IMG/VR virus record: IMGVR_UViG_3300042543_000362
Coordinates: 1-62,814 of that record
Source: a virus
Direction: 5' to 3' (one strand)
DNA: 62,814 nt
Position 1 is the first letter of the stretch; the number at the start of each line of letters is the position of its first letter. A program made the translations under genes and the position numbers. This document shows positions 2,864 to 47,819 of this stretch, one piece after another. Under the pieces are notes generated by a model. It saw nothing but the letters and a program-made list of their open reading frames with translations. It was not told the DNA's origin and did not search any database.

Positions 2864-4015
2864 ATGACGACCGAACGCACCTATCAATGTCGCCGGTCAA
2901 AGGCTTGCAAGGCGTGGATTCCTGAATCGTCGGTTGAGTGGGTTGAACAGTCGAGCCAGCGGCGCCCTTTATGCAAGCCAGGGTACTGTCCGAGCGGCAA
3001 GCGAAACGACACGGCAGAGGAGCTGCTGGAGCTGCAGCTGGAGGCGCGCCGGCTGCGGGCAGAGACGCGGGATGCCAAGGCCAGCGCAGAGAGGGCCCTG
3101 GCCAAATTGGAGGCGGTGCAGGATGCGCTGACCGTAGCGCTTGAGATCAGGGACATTTTTGATCAGGGCGTTATCACCCCGCCAGAGGATCCGCAGAAGG
3201 ATGAGGCGGTGCCGATCCTGCTGCTGTCTGATCTGCACTGCGGGCAGATCGTCAAACCGTCATCCGTCAACGGGCTCAATGAGTTCAACCCCGAGATATT
3301 CGACGACCGGCTAGATGCTGTGTTCCGCAATGCGCTGAAGGTGATCAACGGGCAGCGGAGCACAGCAACAATCCGCGAGGCGGTGGTGTGGCTAGGTGGC
3401 GACCTGATCGAAGGGGAGCTGCACGGTGATGCGGTGCAGAATCAGACGCTGACCACGACTCAGCAGATCGTCAGGTGTGAACGGGCGATCGTGCGGGGGC
3501 TGGACTACCTGCTGCAGCATTCCGACCTGGAGAGGATCCTGATCCCCTGCAACGTGGGCAACCACGGGCGAAACACCAAGAAGCAGCAGAGCAACGCAAC
3601 AGAGAACAGCTACGAACACCTGGCGTACTGCTCAATGCGCCGGCACTACCGGGATGAGTCGCGGCTGGAGTGGTTCATCGCTGATGCTGACTGCCTCTAC
3701 CTGGATGTGTACGGCAAGCGATTGCGGTTCATGCACGGTGATCGGGTGCGTTATATAGGTGGCGCTGCGGGCCCAATGTGGAACGTGGACAAATATGTAA
3801 AGGATCTTGACCAAACGCTAGCGGCACACCATACTTTCCATGGCCATTTTCATACGCTTAGCTTCGGATCAAGGGCCACAGGTAATGGCAGCCTGCCAGG
3901 ATGCGCACCCTACGGCCTGCAAAGCGGCTACCGGATCGAGCGCCCACAGCAGGGGATGCGATTCCTGCACAGCCACAAGGGATTTGCCGGATCGTTCCCG
4001 ATCTTCACCGAGTGA
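2864..4015 (+). CDS. calcineurin-like metallophosphoesterase
   Basis: The 383-residue protein has the full metallophosphoesterase motif series: SDLHCG (D123, H125), GGD (D180), GNHGR (N233, H234), MHGD (H291) and the closing HGHFH (H326, H328, H330). These bind two metals and act on phosphodiesters. An N-terminal Cys-rich patch (C9, C15, C37, C42) may bind zinc, and residues about 50-95 form a coiled coil. Phage members of this family are often called SbcD-like exonucleases, but the substrate cannot be read here. It stands alone, 15 nt after the HNH gene. Confidence 0.85.
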   Translation: MTTERTYQCRRSKACKAWIPESSVEWVEQSSQRRPLCKPGYCPSGKRNDTAEELLELQLEARRLRAETRDAKASAERALAKLEAVQDALTVALEIRDIFDQGVITPPEDPQKDEAVPILLLSDLHCGQIVKPSSVNGLNEFNPEIFDDRLDAVFRNALKVINGQRSTATIREAVVWLGGDLIEGELHGDAVQNQTLTTTQQIVRCERAIVRGLDYLLQHSDLERILIPCNVGNHGRNTKKQQSNATENSYEHLAYCSMRRHYRDESRLEWFIADADCLYLDVYGKRLRFMHGDRVRYIGGAAGPMWNVDKYVKDLDQTLAAHHTFHGHFHTLSFGSRATGNGSLPGCAPYGLQSGYRIERPQQGMRFLHSHKGFAGSFPIFTE

Positions 4016-4596: not shown

Positions 4597-4747
4597 GCAT
4601 CACCAGTGGGCGCGGGAGTTGGGGAGGCGGTTGCCGTAGCGGTGACGTGTCGGCGGGTCAGCTGTTTCGCTGACGGGTTTGGTGGACGTGTTAAGAGGGT
4701 TGGGGTGGTGAGTGGGTGACGGATTGTGAACTGACCCCGTAGGTGGT
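4597..4747. other. intergenic stretch, no gene seen
   Basis: About 150 bp of G-rich sequence leads up to the promoter-like module at 4748. It contains TTGTGAACTG near 4727, which recurs near 31523 in front of the equivalent module there. No convincing ORF or RNA gene is visible. Confidence 0.4.
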
Positions 4748-5665: not shown

Positions 5666-5896
5666 ATGAACGTCCAGCAACTAATTGAAGAACTGCAGAA
5701 GCATCCGCCTGAAATGCGGGTGATTGTCGATGGCTACGAAGGCGGCTACAGCGATTGCAAGCCGCCAGAATCCACCCGGATTCGGCTGAATGTGCATGAA
5801 GAAGATAGGTGGTACTACGGGCGACACGATGACGCAAGCTATCCGCTCGGAGACCAAGCCGGCGCCATCGAAACCGCATTGCGGCTGCCTCGCTAA
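5666..5896 (+). CDS. MNVQQL-family small protein, copy 1 (76 aa)
   Basis: The product starts MNVQQLIEELQKHPPEMRVI and is clearly paralogous to the protein at 31074-31304, which starts MNVQQLIKELQKYPPDMRVI. The family carries an LxxLQKxPPxMRVxxxGYE core that I recall from many phage and bacterial proteins of unknown role. The rest is an acidic beta-rich domain. Its stop overlaps the next start (TAATG), and the same gene pair is repeated near 31.3 kb. Confidence 0.75.
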   Translation: MNVQQLIEELQKHPPEMRVIVDGYEGGYSDCKPPESTRIRLNVHEEDRWYYGRHDDASYPLGDQAGAIETALRLPR

Positions 5897-6851: not shown

Positions 6852-7130
6852 ATGAACAACACCCAGCTCAAAAACCAGTTATTCCCCGAGCACCTCACTG
6901 GTGATCGCCCTGTTTTTACATGGCAAAAGACCGCCAACATTGGCGACGATCATGTGATCTGGTGGCTTTATTACGGATACGCAGATGGAGGGGGCACGCT
7001 TTGCTGCAGATTCTTTCATCCGCGCTCTGCGCCTCTTACTGGAAAAAGAAGAAAGGTCGTAGCGTTTCACTTGCGCGAACTAAAAGCGCAAGTTCGCAGG
7101 GATTGGCGCGCTCGCTTTCCCGCTTATTGA
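6852..7130 (+). CDS. hypothetical protein (92 aa), converges on the sigma gene
   Basis: The product starts MNNTQLKNQLFPEHLTGDRP, has a hydrophobic aromatic core (VIWWLYYGYADGGGTLCC), then a basic tail (LRELKAQVRRDWRARFPAY). A leader variant, CTTCGCCAGCGCCGCC, precedes the ATG. The last 95 nt overlap the 3' end of the leftward sigma gene. No family recognised. Confidence 0.6.
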   Translation: MNNTQLKNQLFPEHLTGDRPVFTWQKTANIGDDHVIWWLYYGYADGGGTLCCRFFHPRSAPLTGKRRKVVAFHLRELKAQVRRDWRARFPAY

Positions 7131-8223
7131 CTGGCTGACCCCCCCCAGCAGCAGCGACCCGCAGCCGATCGCCGAGACAGACCCAGTTCCTGGGGAATCC
7201 CCCAACCCTGCGCAGCGCCGGGGACGCGGGCTTCACCCTTTCAACCGGCACCAGCACCAGCTGATCAGGCCGCTCGCGGCGCCGCCTGCTCTTGTCCTTT
7301 GGCTCCGGTTTCTTCCGCTCCACCGCCACCAGCACCAGCTGCACCGACTGCGACGCCAGCGACGCCTGCAGCCGTGCAAGCCGCACCTCCAAGGCCCGTG
7401 TGCTCAGGCCTTCCTGCTGGGCCAGCTCGCTCCGGGGGATCTCCACCCCGTCAAGGCCCCAGGCCAGGGACAACAACCTGCGATCCGGCGGCGCCAACCT
7501 GGCGATCAGCCCCCGCAGCTGCTCCGCCTGGCGCCAGCGTTCGCGCTGTTCCTCTTCATCCTCTGGCGTGCGGTCGTAGGCGGCGCACAGGCTGCCCAGC
7601 TCTAGCCCGTCATCGGTCACGACCTGATCCAGCGAGGCCACCGGCCGGCCGTTCTCAATCACCTGCTCCAGCACCCGCAGCGACACGCCCAGCTCTGCGG
7701 CGATCTCCGCCTGCGTCGGCGTGCGGCTCAGTTCCCGTTCCAGCCGTCGGGTGATGGCGTCCAGCTTCGCTAGATGCTGGCAGTGGCTGCCGGGGATGGC
7801 GATGGCGCGGCCGTGCTGATCGACCCAGCGGTTGATGGCCTGCCGTATCCACCAATATGCGTAGGTGGAGAACCGGTAGCCCTTCGCCGGATCAAACCGC
7901 TCAGCGGCGGTGATCAGGCCCATGTTCCCGGCTTGGGTCAGATCTTCGCGGTCGAATGACCGGGTGAGCCTGTGGCAGCGCTTGGAGATGTACGCCACCA
8001 CCAGCCGCAGATTCGCCGATACGAACCGGTCCCGGGCCCGCTGGCCGCGGCGCCGGATCCCTGGTGGGCACGGGTCGGGGTGCTGCTGCCAGCGCTGGAT
8101 GGCCGTGCCCAGTTCAATCTCTTCGGCTGGGGAGAGCAGGGGAATGCGCCCGATCGAGTCGAGCCACCAGGACTGGTTGCTGCTGGCCGGCACGGATCGA
8201 ATGTGACGATTTGCCCCCATCAT
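7036..8223 (-). CDS. phage-encoded sigma-70 family RNA polymerase sigma factor
   Basis: The 395-residue protein would redirect host RNA polymerase. Region 1.2 is near residues 15-45. Region 2 is well kept: FVSANLRLVVAYISKRC (67-83), DLTQAGNMGLITAAERFDPAKG (94-115) and YRFSTYAYWWIRQAINRW (116-133), the last being the -10 reading and melting helix. Region 3 covers about 145-200. Region 4 (about 235-290) is degenerate: the helix-turn-helix reads IPRSELAQQEGLSTRALEVRLARL instead of the usual TLEEIG...RERVRQIE pattern. A 100-residue tail carries two copies of QLVLV-VERxKP. ATG 8223 or GTG at residue 11 could start it. It is the only leftward gene in this arm and abuts a promoter module. Closest in style to cyanobacterial group 2 sigma factors. 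Confidence 0.85.
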   Translation of the reverse strand: MMGANRHIRSVPASSNQSWWLDSIGRIPLLSPAEEIELGTAIQRWQQHPDPCPPGIRRRGQRARDRFVSANLRLVVAYISKRCHRLTRSFDREDLTQAGNMGLITAAERFDPAKGYRFSTYAYWWIRQAINRWVDQHGRAIAIPGSHCQHLAKLDAITRRLERELSRTPTQAEIAAELGVSLRVLEQVIENGRPVASLDQVVTDDGLELGSLCAAYDRTPEDEEEQRERWRQAEQLRGLIARLAPPDRRLLSLAWGLDGVEIPRSELAQQEGLSTRALEVRLARLQASLASQSVQLVLVAVERKKPEPKDKSRRRRERPDQLVLVPVERVKPASPALRRVGGFPRNWVCLGDRLRVAAAGGGQPVNKRESERANPCELALLVRASETLRPFFFFQ

Positions 8224-8227
8224 AGGG

Positions 8228-8283
8228 TGCGAAAGGGGAACCGATCCGGTATGGTGTGGGGGCGTTCACCACTCGCTACGACC
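8228..8283 (+). promoter_or_regulatory. promoter-leader module 3, divergent from the sigma gene
   Basis: TGCGAA (8228-8233), 16 bp, TATGGT (8250-8255), then CACTCGCTA (8270-8278) and ATG 8284. The upstream box starts 5 nt from the sigma start codon. Polymerase or sigma binding here could therefore affect expression of the sigma gene itself. Confidence 0.6.
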
Positions 8284-9943: not shown

Positions 9944-10249
9944 ATGCCCACCCCCACCCCACCCCTCTCCTGTGACGGCGCCCTGTCGGACCTGATCCTT
10001 CAGGCCGCCCGCCAGGCGCTGCCGGCACACGTGGACTCCCTGATTGAGCTGCCCGACTGCGGCGAGCGCAACCGCCCGCTCATGCCCCTGCTGGTGGGGC
10101 TGATCGATGCGGCGAAGGTCACGGCCAGCGCAATCAACGACAACGCCTGGGACTCGGGCCCAGCGCTGCCCACGGGTCTGGCAGACAGCCTGCTCGCTGA
10201 GCTGGAGATTGTTCGCCAGCTCATCACCTCTGCCTGTGACGCTTTCTGA
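9944..10249 (+). CDS. hypothetical protein (101 aa)
   Basis: The product starts MPTPTPPLSCDGALSDLILQ and is helical: LMPLLVGLIDAAKVTASAIND and ADSLLAELEIVRQLITSACD. It lies 5 nt after the coiled-coil gene in the same direction. No membrane segment and no motif I recognise. Confidence 0.55.
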   Translation: MPTPTPPLSCDGALSDLILQAARQALPAHVDSLIELPDCGERNRPLMPLLVGLIDAAKVTASAINDNAWDSGPALPTGLADSLLAELEIVRQLITSACDAF

Positions 10250-15560: not shown

Positions 15561-16099
15561 GGTGCTTTAATTACTGCTTCTGGATTTGCGAATCCAAGTA
15601 GCGGCAGGAAGAAAAATGGCTGATTTCGTTTCCGCATGACAGCGGCACCTTGGATTTCATTGGAAGCCCTGGCCGCTGCCCTGGCCGCTTCCCTGGCCGC
15701 TTCCCTGGCCGCTTCCCCGGCCGCTTCCCCGGCCGCTTCCCAGGCCGCTGGTGTCATGTGATCAAGATGTCGCCAAAAAGCAAGCACTGCTTGCGCTTGA
15801 TCTCCTAAAATTTGCTCGGGGTTGCGAATAACACTAGAAGGCGCACCTTGTTGCTTGTCGTTGATAATGCGCAACAAGACCGAATGGGCGCGGCTGATGC
15901 CAAACAATTCAGCAACTCGCTTGTCAGCTGCAGTTTGATCAACATGGCGCAATTCTTCAACGGTTAGCCCACCAATAAAATGCAACGCTTGCCCTTGGGC
16001 GCACATGCAAGAGCCGTCGTCACTTACAAGACTTCCCTTGAAGGGCATGTTTCCAGGCCAGTAATCAAGGAGTTCTTCGACTGTGGTTGGTGTAGTCAT
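15557..16099 (-). CDS. conserved phage protein of unknown function with Ala/Glu repeat
   Basis: I start it at ATG 16099, just after a CACTCGCTA leader, giving 180 residues. Residues 1-115 carry a conserved core with DDGSCMCAQGQALHF and VAELFGISRAHSVLLRIIND, which I recall from other phages without a known role. Residues about 118-145 are an EAA/GEAA helix encoded by a 12-bp tandem repeat. The tail is basic and aromatic. It may act as a regulator, but no DNA-binding motif is evident. Confidence 0.7.
   Translation of the reverse strand: MTTPTTVEELLDYWPGNMPFKGSLVSDDGSCMCAQGQALHFIGGLTVEELRHVDQTAADKRVAELFGISRAHSVLLRIINDKQQGAPSSVIRNPEQILGDQAQAVLAFWRHLDHMTPAAWEAAGEAAGEAAREAAREAARAAARASNEIQGAAVMRKRNQPFFFLPLLGFANPEAVIKAP
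15666..15749. repeat. 12-bp tandem repeat, seven units
   Basis: Seven units of the form TCCCTGGCCGCT run head to tail with one or two changes each. They encode the EAAG/EAAR helix of the leftward gene 15557-16099. The unit is a multiple of 3, so copy-number change would keep the reading frame. Confidence 0.85.
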
Positions 16100-16789: not shown

Positions 16790-16857
16790 GGCGAACAATG
16801 GCGAGTGGCGGGCGTGTGCCCGTGGTCGAATCATACCGGATGGGTTCCGGTTTTGCA
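16790..16857 (-). promoter_or_regulatory. promoter-hairpin-leader module 4 (leftward)
   Basis: On the leftward strand TGCAAA (16857-16852), 16 bp, TATGAT (16835-16830), then a CGGGC/GCCCG hairpin (16822-16809) and CACTCGCCA (16807-16799), 9 nt before ATG 16789. This is the most complete example on this strand. Confidence 0.65.
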
Positions 16858-16902
16858 CCCCTTAGGGGCGGGGATGGGCAGGACGTGGGCGGAGCGGTCT
16901 GC

Positions 16903-22351: not shown

Positions 22352-23260
22352 TTAGATCTTCCAGGCAGCGGGGAGATCGTCGCTGTTATCCGAAGGCGGA
22401 TCTTCACCTTCGGGCGAAGCCTCAACTTCCAAAGGATCGCCGTCGTGGTCCAAGACCGTCATGGTTGGTCGGTCTTCTTTCGCCGGCGCACCGTTGCACT
22501 TCGCCACGGTCTCGCCGCTGATGCCCTGTTGGATGATCCGGTCAAGCACCTTGGCCGGCAGGTCCGCCAGCGCGGCGATCTTCCCGCTGCTGACCATCAG
22601 GCAGAACGCCATCACGCCGTCTGAGGTCAGGCCGGCGGCATCGCAGACCTGCTGGGCATGTGGCAGGGCGGCGGCGGGATCAGGGACGCTCTCAGTCACA
22701 GTCACCGGTACCACCTCCCCGCCGATCTCGTCGGGGGTGTAGGCCGTGTGGCCGCCGAGGGCGTCGGGGCAGTGCGTGCGCATCCCGGCGGTGAGCGCCC
22801 GGCTAAACAGCATGGCCTCGGGGTAGGCCTTCCACGTGGGGTTCTTCAGGAGGCCGGCACGCTCAGCCATCTCGATGGTGAAGGTCTCCACGCCCATCTC
22901 TTCGCCGTTGGCGAGAAACCGGATCCGGCAGACCTTGGCCGATTTCTCCAGCACCCGGTAGTCGTACACCGGGTGCCGGCGCACAGCCTGGGCCAGCAGG
23001 TTGGAGCTGAACGCCGGCCGGCCGTTGATGATGTGGACGCCGGTGGCGGAGGCGAACGGGGAAAACCCGGCCTCCATGCCGGCCATCAGTCGGATGGCGC
23101 ACTCGGCGACCTGTGTTTCCTGATTGCCGGCGCGGCCGAACAGGCCAGACGCGGCAAACACCCGGGCCAAGCGGGCCAGGTCATCTACTGACTGGACCTG
23201 CAGGCTGAGGGCTGGTGTGGCGCTCGGCGCTGTGAGCGCTGAGCTGGTGTGGTCGGCCAT
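22352..23260 (-). CDS. RecT-like single-strand annealing protein
   Basis: The 302-residue protein has RecT family words: GMEAGFSPFASATGVHIING, FSSNLLAQAVRRHP, and KNPTWKAYPEAMLFSRALTA followed by YTPDEIG. It would anneal complementary strands during phage recombination, with SSB and the VRR-NUC nuclease on either side. The C-terminal 50 residues are acidic and disordered. A promoter-like site lies 25 nt upstream, inside the nuclease gene's end. Confidence 0.75.
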   Translation of the reverse strand: MADHTSSALTAPSATPALSLQVQSVDDLARLARVFAASGLFGRAGNQETQVAECAIRLMAGMEAGFSPFASATGVHIINGRPAFSSNLLAQAVRRHPVYDYRVLEKSAKVCRIRFLANGEEMGVETFTIEMAERAGLLKNPTWKAYPEAMLFSRALTAGMRTHCPDALGGHTAYTPDEIGGEVVPVTVTESVPDPAAALPHAQQVCDAAGLTSDGVMAFCLMVSSGKIAALADLPAKVLDRIIQQGISGETVAKCNGAPAKEDRPTMTVLDHDGDPLEVEASPEGEDPPSDNSDDLPAAWKI

Positions 23261-23284: not shown

Positions 23285-23312
23285 ATCCTAGCGGATGGGT
23301 TCCGGTTTCGCA
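23285..23312 (-). promoter_or_regulatory. promoter-like boxes (leftward)
   Basis: On the leftward strand TGCGAA (23312-23307), 16 bp, TAGGAT (23290-23285), followed by ATG 23260 of the RecT-like gene. Its spacer shares ACCGGAACCCATCCG with the site at 16852. It overlaps the last codons of the VRR-NUC gene. No CACTCGC leader follows. Confidence 0.55.
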
Positions 23313-23707
23313 CCCGTTCGCAGTATTTCTCTCGCATCCTCCACACTGCGCACGATTCCGGCGCACCCACCAGCGGCGGTGATGTGGTCGAGAAATGCGG
23401 TCTGCTGGGGGGTGGGCCTGCCGGTGGCCGATTTCACCTCAAGCGCCACGAACTGGGCCAGGTCGCCCACGCGGCGATACCCGATCAGGTCGGAGCTGCC
23501 GACACATAGGCCCGCATGGAGCGGCCTGGCGTTGCGCACCACCACGTCGCCAGGGCGGAGGGAATGGGCCAGCGCGGAAAGGTTCCCAGCGGTGACGCGG
23601 GTGGCGGCGCCAGCCCAGCCGGTGCCGACGTTGTTCCTGAAGAGGCGGACCGGGCCTGAGCCGTGGGCCAGGAGGATTCGTTGCTGAGTTTCCTGTTCGC
23701 TGGGCAT
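23288..23707 (-). CDS. VRR-NUC domain nuclease
   Basis: I start it at ATG 23707, giving 139 residues. A PD-(D/E)XK core is visible: RNNVGTG, GSSDLIG with D73, then VALEVKSATG with E90 and K92, and PQQ at 100-102. This matches VRR-NUC, a family that cuts branched or flapped DNA. With RecT-like, SSB and helicase genes it completes a recombination set. Confidence 0.75.
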   Translation of the reverse strand: MPSEQETQQRILLAHGSGPVRLFRNNVGTGWAGAATRVTAGNLSALAHSLRPGDVVVRNARPLHAGLCVGSSDLIGYRRVGDLAQFVALEVKSATGRPTPQQTAFLDHITAAGGCAGIVRSVEDAREILRTGAKPEPIR

Positions 23708-26379: not shown

Positions 26380-26629
26380 GGCATCAGTGATCCGAATTAA
26401 CACCACCACCCACCCCACTTGCTGCCGCCCTCAGAAACCGTTGGAGCTGGAACCAGCGACAGTCCTCGATGGGACCCGTACAGACCAGAGGCCGACTGAG
26501 ACCCACCGCCTGGCCCGGGCAGTGGTCGGCATCGTCAGGGAGTGGGGCGTGGGGGTGGTGGCTCCCAGATCATACCCTGTGGGTTCCGCATCCGCACCCC
26601 TTAGGATGGGAGAACAACAATCACCCCCG
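26380..26629. promoter_or_regulatory. divergent promoter region between early blocks
   Basis: On the leftward strand TGCGGA (26596-26591), 16 bp, TATGAT (26574-26569) fits the promoter family. On the rightward strand TGGGTT (26580-26585), 16 bp, TAGGAT (26602-26607) could drive the ribbon-helix-helix and primase genes. The two overlap, so only one may be bound at a time. The 190 bp left of these boxes hold no convincing gene. Confidence 0.5.
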
Positions 26630-31073: not shown

Positions 31074-31304
31074 ATGAACGTTCAGCAACTGATTAAAGAA
31101 CTCCAGAAGTATCCGCCTGATATGCGGGTAATTCTGCAGGGGTATGAAAGCGGTTTTGATGATCTCAGCAGGCTAGAGCTTATGGAAATTGTTGTTAATT
31201 ACAATGACGACGGCCATAGTTGGTGGAATGGCAAACATGCACCCGCAAGCCAAATGCTGCCACCAACGGCGAAAGGCCATGAGCAAGCCCTGCTGATCTC
31301 CTAA
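31074..31304 (+). CDS. MNVQQL-family small protein, copy 2 (76 aa)
   Basis: The product starts MNVQQLIKELQKYPPDMRVI and continues LQGYESGFDDLSRLELMEIV. It is a paralogue of 5666-5896, with the same length and the same next gene. Its stop overlaps the zinc-ribbon start (TAATG). Two copies 25 kb apart suggest duplication or recombination of a cassette. Confidence 0.75.
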   Translation: MNVQQLIKELQKYPPDMRVILQGYESGFDDLSRLELMEIVVNYNDDGHSWWNGKHAPASQMLPPTAKGHEQALLIS

Positions 31305-47411: not shown

Positions 47412-47743
47412 ACGCGGCGCTGTTCCTCGCTGGCGCCGCGAAAGGTGAGGCTGACGACGGCAAGGATGCCGCCGACGCTGCAGCCATGTTCGGCCTGGAG
47501 GTGCCTGAGGCAGAGCAGCGGCCCAAGACGTTCGGGATCCTGCCGGAGAACTGCGAAGCGCTGGCGTGGTTCCTGAAGATGCAGACCCAGTGGCGGGTCG
47601 GCATGGCTGGCCCCGTAGGCCTCGACTACGGGGTGTTCCTCCAATGCGCCAAGGATGAGGGCGTGAAGCGCTCCGACCGGGTGTGGCTGCTGGAGGATCT
47701 GCGGTTGATCGAGCGGGAGTATCTGGGGGCGGCGCGGGGGTGA
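47405..47743 (+). CDS. tail assembly chaperone T part, made by -1 frameshift (DUF1799-like)
   Basis: This frame has no start near its beginning; it reads LVDAALFLAGAAKG straight from the slip site. ATG 47486 is a weaker internal start. The core NCEALAWFLKMQTQWRVG and GLDYGVFLQCAKDEG matches DUF1799, the usual T-like partner. The fusion would be about 269 residues. The T part bridges chaperone and tube in lambda. Confidence 0.75.
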   Translation, partial: LVDAALFLAGAAKGEADDGKDAADAAAMFGLEVPEAEQRPKTFGILPENCEALAWFLKMQTQWRVGMAGPVGLDYGVFLQCAKDEGVKRSDRVWLLEDLRLIEREYLGAARG

Positions 47744-47747
47744 TGGG

Positions 47748-47819
47748 TGCGAAATGGGTTCCGGTGCGGTAGGGTGTGGGGCAGGTGCCCGCACGGGGCG
47801 CCGTTGCTACCCACTCGCC
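47748..47819 (+). promoter_or_regulatory. promoter-hairpin-leader module 7
   Basis: TGCGAA (47748-47753), 16 bp, TAGGGT (47770-47775), a GGTGCCC/GGGCGCC hairpin (47784-47802), CACTCGCCA (47812-47820) and ATG 47820. It lies inside the late tail operon, so the next genes have their own control. Confidence 0.6.

Follow-up and report, generated by a model that had tools for sequence, protein, structure and literature searches.

The window, the whole stretch of DNA analysed here, is a 62.8 kb IMG/VR virus record (62,814 nucleotides) of a tailed phage of freshwater cyanobacteria, with terminase, portal and tail genes. This virus probably redirects the RNA polymerase of its host, because it has start signals of an unusual kind that no search recovered outside related viruses and that vary in step with an altered, phage-encoded sigma factor. 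We consider it likely that this protein is an alternative sigma reprogramming the host enzyme to phage-specific promoters. The phage sigma would replace the host sigma on the cyanobacterial core RNA polymerase and steer it to a promoter made of a -35-like GGTGC box, a mid-spacer GGWWCC element and a -10 TANGRT element with CGS just before it. Reading of the -10 element would fall to region 2 and reading of the -35 box to a re-specified region 4, with a regulon consisting chiefly of DNA replication and recombination genes.

The sequence-only reading of the window had already proposed that the sigma directs host polymerase to phage promoters. Co-occurrence of sigma and motif, absence of the motif from cellular genomes and co-variation of the two now support this proposal well, if indirectly, and from them we infer that the window sigma physically recognises the motif. 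Phage sigmas are usually annotated from sequence and their promoters are not known. Here a sigma can be matched with a highly specific promoter in dozens of genomes, one of them that of a cultured phage, and natural swaps of both partners occur; the evidence consists of sequence, mostly from metagenomic contigs. The pairing provides a clear example of joint change in a sigma and its regulon, and a candidate orthogonal sigma–promoter pair for cyanobacteria.

The phage sigma factor and its region 4

A sigma-70-family ORF occupies positions 7036-8223 of the minus strand and counts 395 residues from the ATG at 8223 that opens the longest frame. The sigma gene noticed earlier is thus real. The start codon is probably GTG 8193, giving a likely coding sequence at 7036-8193, because most orthologs become homologous only from about that codon onward (alignments with orthologs of 78-97% identity mostly start at window residues 8-11) and several of them carry a stop codon a little upstream of its equivalent. 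With this start, the -35 end of the promoter-like site at 8222 lies about 30 nt from the sigma start, in place of the 5 nt gap first proposed. A scan for the sigma-70 consensus around the sigma locus gave no match.

Pfam matches above the cut-offs cover region 1.2 (3e-8), region 2 (3.6e-18) and region 3 (2e-12). Region 2, responsible for core binding and -10 reading, spans residues 68-139 of the 395-residue ORF (7807-8022, minus strand; PF04542) and is kept, as had been claimed. None of the Pfam region 4 models reaches its cut-off against the window sigma. In a 41-sequence alignment, the canonical -35-reading residues SRERVRQ are absent from this protein and their columns are occupied by STRALEV (7384-7404, minus strand), so that region 4.2 is indeed unlike the usual -35 reader. 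The description of region 4 as degenerate did not withstand structure prediction, the check proposed for it: the AlphaFold2 model places a helix-turn-helix where it is expected, with pLDDT values of about 88-97 over the region 4 helices, and the whole-protein model matches SigA structures. Since these helices are confidently predicted, region 4 is, according to the model, a re-specified -35 reader rather than a degenerate one. SRERVRQ is not needed in an alternative sigma of another specificity. Regions 1.2, 2 and 3, together with the predicted fold of region 4, fit a group 2-like member of the sigma-70 family. The recognition helix differs between sigma clades, which carry STRALEV, KPARVDG or TARQMSA.

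Cyanobacterial group 2 and primary sigmas are homologous to the window protein over regions 1.2-3 (34-41% identity), but they mostly carry the canonical SRERVRQ helix and end soon after region 4, with no added tail. The group 2 sigmas of S-CBS1, S-CBS3 and KBS-S-2A are likewise sigma-70 proteins encoded by cyanosiphoviruses, and in S-CBS1 and S-CBS3 the gene lies near a lysozyme gene, as in the window. They share 33-41% identity with the window sigma over the aligned parts, and their recognition helices (SRERIRQ, SREAIRQ and SRERVRQ) are near canonical, unlike STRALEV.

A three-part promoter family and its targets

Five window sites form one promoter-like family, of the common form GGTGCRRAWSSGGWWCC-N4-CGSTANGRT or close variants, in which the three parts named above are recognisable. 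On the plus strand, the site at 8222-8255 is divergent from sigma and leads into the operon starting at ATG 8284. Three sites lie on the minus strand: 16830-16863 ahead of small ORFs, 23285-23318 located 24 nt before the gene of a RecT-like annealing protein (22352-23260), and 26569-26602 upstream of the helicase operon (26418-24449). The fifth, at 47742-47775 on the plus strand, precedes the tape-measure gene and follows the gene of the tape-measure chaperone. A pattern built from the window sites matched the window four times and 100 shuffles not once, and a profile derived from 69 sites matched 107 times in 42 contigs and never in shuffled sequence.

Ten sites had originally been grouped together. 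As one family they were rejected: only these five pass, and the remaining repeated sites are different elements. Those at 4742+, 6454+, 30657+ and 31541+ belong to separate promoter-like repeats, such as CCGTAAGGGACGCGCTAAGGTATG, with a CATCGG/GGAGGG-like sequence after them. They appear independent of the window sigma, since the related genome G067, whose sigma differs, has two look-alikes of the 30657/31541 element. Other repeats of the window are a 12-base tandem repeat at 15655-15750 (CCCTGGCCGCTT) and the start of a small ORF present in two copies, 83% alike, at 5666-5745 and 31074-31153.

Numbering the last T of the -10 element as -7, the most constant positions among 63 distinct main-clade sites are -36 to -32 (GGTGC), -25 to -20 (GGWWCC) and the G at -14; within the -10 element they are -12, -11 and -7. 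The distance from the -10 element to the start codon is 23-24 nt at many sites. The upstream box previously called unusual is unusual, and it resolves into two elements, the -35 GGTGC and the mid-spacer GGWWCC, of which only GGTGC occupies the usual binding position of region 4. Positions -25 to -20 are not ones that a sigma ordinarily reads. The mid-spacer element is conserved as strongly as the -35 box; it varies between sigma clades and is common to most sites of one genome. GGTGC is nearly constant although the recognition helix differs between clades.

The conservation of the mid-spacer element and its variation with clade could also be explained by an accessory phage activator of the T4 MotA type, which would bind GGTGC and/or GGWWCC and assist a polymerase carrying either the host or the phage sigma. 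A candidate for this role is A35, a small acidic protein encoded at 9944-10249 in the window and by S-LBS1 (its A35). Among the motif-positive genomes examined, the fuller ones contain A35 too, and the sigma is therefore not the sole correlate of the motif. We regard such an activator as rather unlikely: A35 is small and acidic and, matching no known family, was rejected as a known transcription factor, the promoter variants track the sigma, and the window proteins scanned, a set that did not include every small ORF, contain no MotA or AsiA homolog. T4 middle promoters carry a MotA box near -30. They resemble the window family by a conserved spacer element upstream of the -10 element, and differ from it in that the window family also conserves the -35-like GGTGC and comes without a MotA or AsiA homolog among the same scanned proteins.

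Genes that recur behind the promoter family are RecT/SSB, the helicase operon and the operon diverging from sigma (with Gp157 or its replacement, then A35), joined by a gene after the primase and by small ORFs. Such targets point to a middle class that serves replication and recombination, and middle expression is the most likely timing of the regulon.

It had also been thought that the sigma controls itself through the adjacent promoter. For the window phage this idea is unsupported, because the site at 8222-8255 is on the plus strand and the sigma gene on the minus strand: the two are divergent, and the promoter therefore does not transcribe sigma. Relatives are arranged otherwise. A family site stands directly before sigma and on the same strand in G035 and G037 (sigma identity 46-49%), and another stands ahead of two tandem sigma genes in G059, G060 and G061. 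Given these positions, auto-activation of sigma is plausible in all five genomes. The tandem genes behind a single family promoter extend from 23770 to about 25600 in G059, over 21981-20249 in G060 and over 27327-25595 in G061, and their products share about 34% and 60-63% identity with the window sigma.

Co-occurrence and co-variation of sigma and promoter

A motif-only scan of 2.9 million viral contigs returned 47 stretches on 42 contigs. As the scan pattern holds about 46 bits, we estimate the number of chance matches to be far below one. A relative of the window sigma is encoded in 18 of the 42 motif-positive contigs, and in eight of the nine that reach at least 30 kb. The other 24 also lack the genes that flank sigma, namely lysozyme on one side and Gp157 or its replacement plus A35 on the other. 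None of them spans the locus; one alone (G024) reaches the outer flank, A35, and ends there. With flanking genes missing and the locus not spanned, these sigma-less contigs provide no counterexample. Among 84,980 genomes of bacteria and archaea, none contained an exact match to the same pattern.

The search was also run from the protein. Loci with upstream DNA and a sigma of at least about 69% identity carry a divergent site beside sigma, two of these sites being a GGTTG variant recognised by eye only. G056, with a 64%-identical sigma, has no recognised motif, and when G056, G067, G068 and G072 were searched de novo for a motif belonging to their sigmas, no comparable family turned up beside sigma. 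G056 does carry, at 1058- and 15677-, a repeated element containing GGTCTTGACTCAGACC, an inverted repeat.

These distributions bear on a further explanation, in which the sites are ordinary promoters of a host sigma or overlap a repressor operator and the phage sigma acts elsewhere. A host sigma could read the -10 element TANGRT, and GGWWCC is palindromic, occurring both as GGAACC and as GGTTCC. This explanation appears very unlikely, given that the motif is found in none of the 84,980 cellular genomes, that it is gone where the sigma differs and that the 63 sites show no covarying dyad arms. A repressor operator drawn from the spacer dyad (ACCGG-7-CCGGT), present at some sites, was rejected on that last result.

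Natural swaps also link promoter and sigma. The terminases of G067 and G072 are about 60% identical to that of the window and 82-85% to that of S-LBS1; their sigmas have 42-47% identity and the motif was found in neither genome. In G059, G060 and G061, whose sigma has the helix KPARVDGRL, a TGCATCCGCA-type block replaces the usual mid-spacer block at most sites. An exact scan of the viral collection recovered the TGCATCCGCA variant only in these three genomes and in one contig ending short of the sigma locus. G053 carries an identical -35 change at all four of its sites.

Judged by sigma, the isolate nearest to the window phage is S-LBS1 (MG271909), a freshwater cyanosiphovirus whose SLBS1_A33 is 73% identical to the window sigma. 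As in the window, the gene lies between lysozyme and the recombination operon, region 4 is altered (STRALES) and a promoter variant of its own stands divergently beside sigma. That variant, GGTGCCRATNCGGTATG, occurs at two places in S-LBS1, at 22982+ for Gp157 and at 31836- for the second helicase; it differs from the window form by a -35 box placed one base further out, and the protein differs by a shorter tail ending in QLVLVEAP. An exact scan for the S-LBS1-type variant matched no viral contig. Promoters of this kind are not described in the passages of the S-LBS1 paper that deal with its sigma and with promoters.

The RecT promoter, located 10-20 kb from sigma, allows promoter divergence to be compared with that of the regulator and of the driven gene. 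Across 12 related genomes, a sample leaning on G059-G061 and with RecT homologs short or missing in four, RecT promoter distance and sigma distance were correlated (r=0.81, Mantel p=0.0008), also after accounting for RecT (partial r=0.70), against a partial r of 0.02 with RecT distance given sigma. Promoter divergence thus appears to follow sigma divergence and not that of the driven gene.

The C-terminal tail and a possible link to the sliding clamp

The C terminus of the window sigma is longer than that of its orthologs, which end at ...AAAGGSW or earlier. In many relatives with an altered region 4, a linker, often Arg-rich, leads to a terminal or nearly terminal QLxL peptide (EQLSLFAA, EQLRLF, TQLALFGPLE, GQLVLPLT, GQLTLLAIA or VEQLALI). 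The bacterial clamp-binding consensus is QL(S/D)LF, and T4 gp55 carries its clamp-binding motif at the C terminus (PMC9690074, PMC7892883). After clustering at 70%, the strict form QLxL[FLP] was present in 6 of 38 viral clusters with altered region 4, where shuffled tails would lead one to expect 0.25; the seven cyanobacterial sigma clusters all lacked it.

We tentatively propose that a QLxLF-type tail may tether cyanosiphovirus sigmas to the host clamp DnaN and so couple the three-part promoters to phage replication, an idea we hold possible but doubtful. Taken further, the sigma would be a host-takeover factor tied by its tail to the host sliding clamp, replication would switch on the regulon and promoter choice would play a partial role. 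This version is equally uncertain. The enrichment of the terminal peptides above shuffle expectation, their absence from cyanobacterial sigmas and the precedent of gp55 speak for it. On the other side, the peptide is missing from several clusters, and some tails end in VA or AA, which would also fit a degradation signal. In the window protein and its closest orthologs the peptide is no more than QLVLV and lies away from the end, which makes the clamp idea weak for the window phage. There, the peptide occurs twice: at 7327-7341 (minus strand), just after region 4, as a weak clamp-motif-like candidate conserved in relatives, and at 7249-7263 (minus strand), after an Arg-rich stretch, where short-tailed relatives end in QLxL.

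T4 gp55, which works with the gp45 clamp, may share with this family of sigmas a clamp-binding peptide borne on a C-terminal linker. It has a region 2 homology domain and no classical region 4, whereas the window sigma keeps all regions. A gp55-type promoter reduced to the -10 element is not matched either, as the window family conserves a -35-like box, and the clamp would be the host DnaN. A T4 review (PMC2988020) presents the biochemistry of T4 late transcription as unique to T4-related phages or markedly different from that of other systems. Literature searches for clamp-binding phage sigmas outside T4 or for cyanosiphovirus promoter motifs found nothing relevant in the collection searched. 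If the C-terminal peptide does bind the clamp, sliding-clamp-activated transcription, and with it the coupling of transcription to replication, would extend beyond T4-like phages to a sigma that keeps region 4 and uses a host clamp. The KBS-S-2A sigma (2974-3903) has a canonical region 4 yet ends in a clamp-motif-like C terminus, LQLPLIP.
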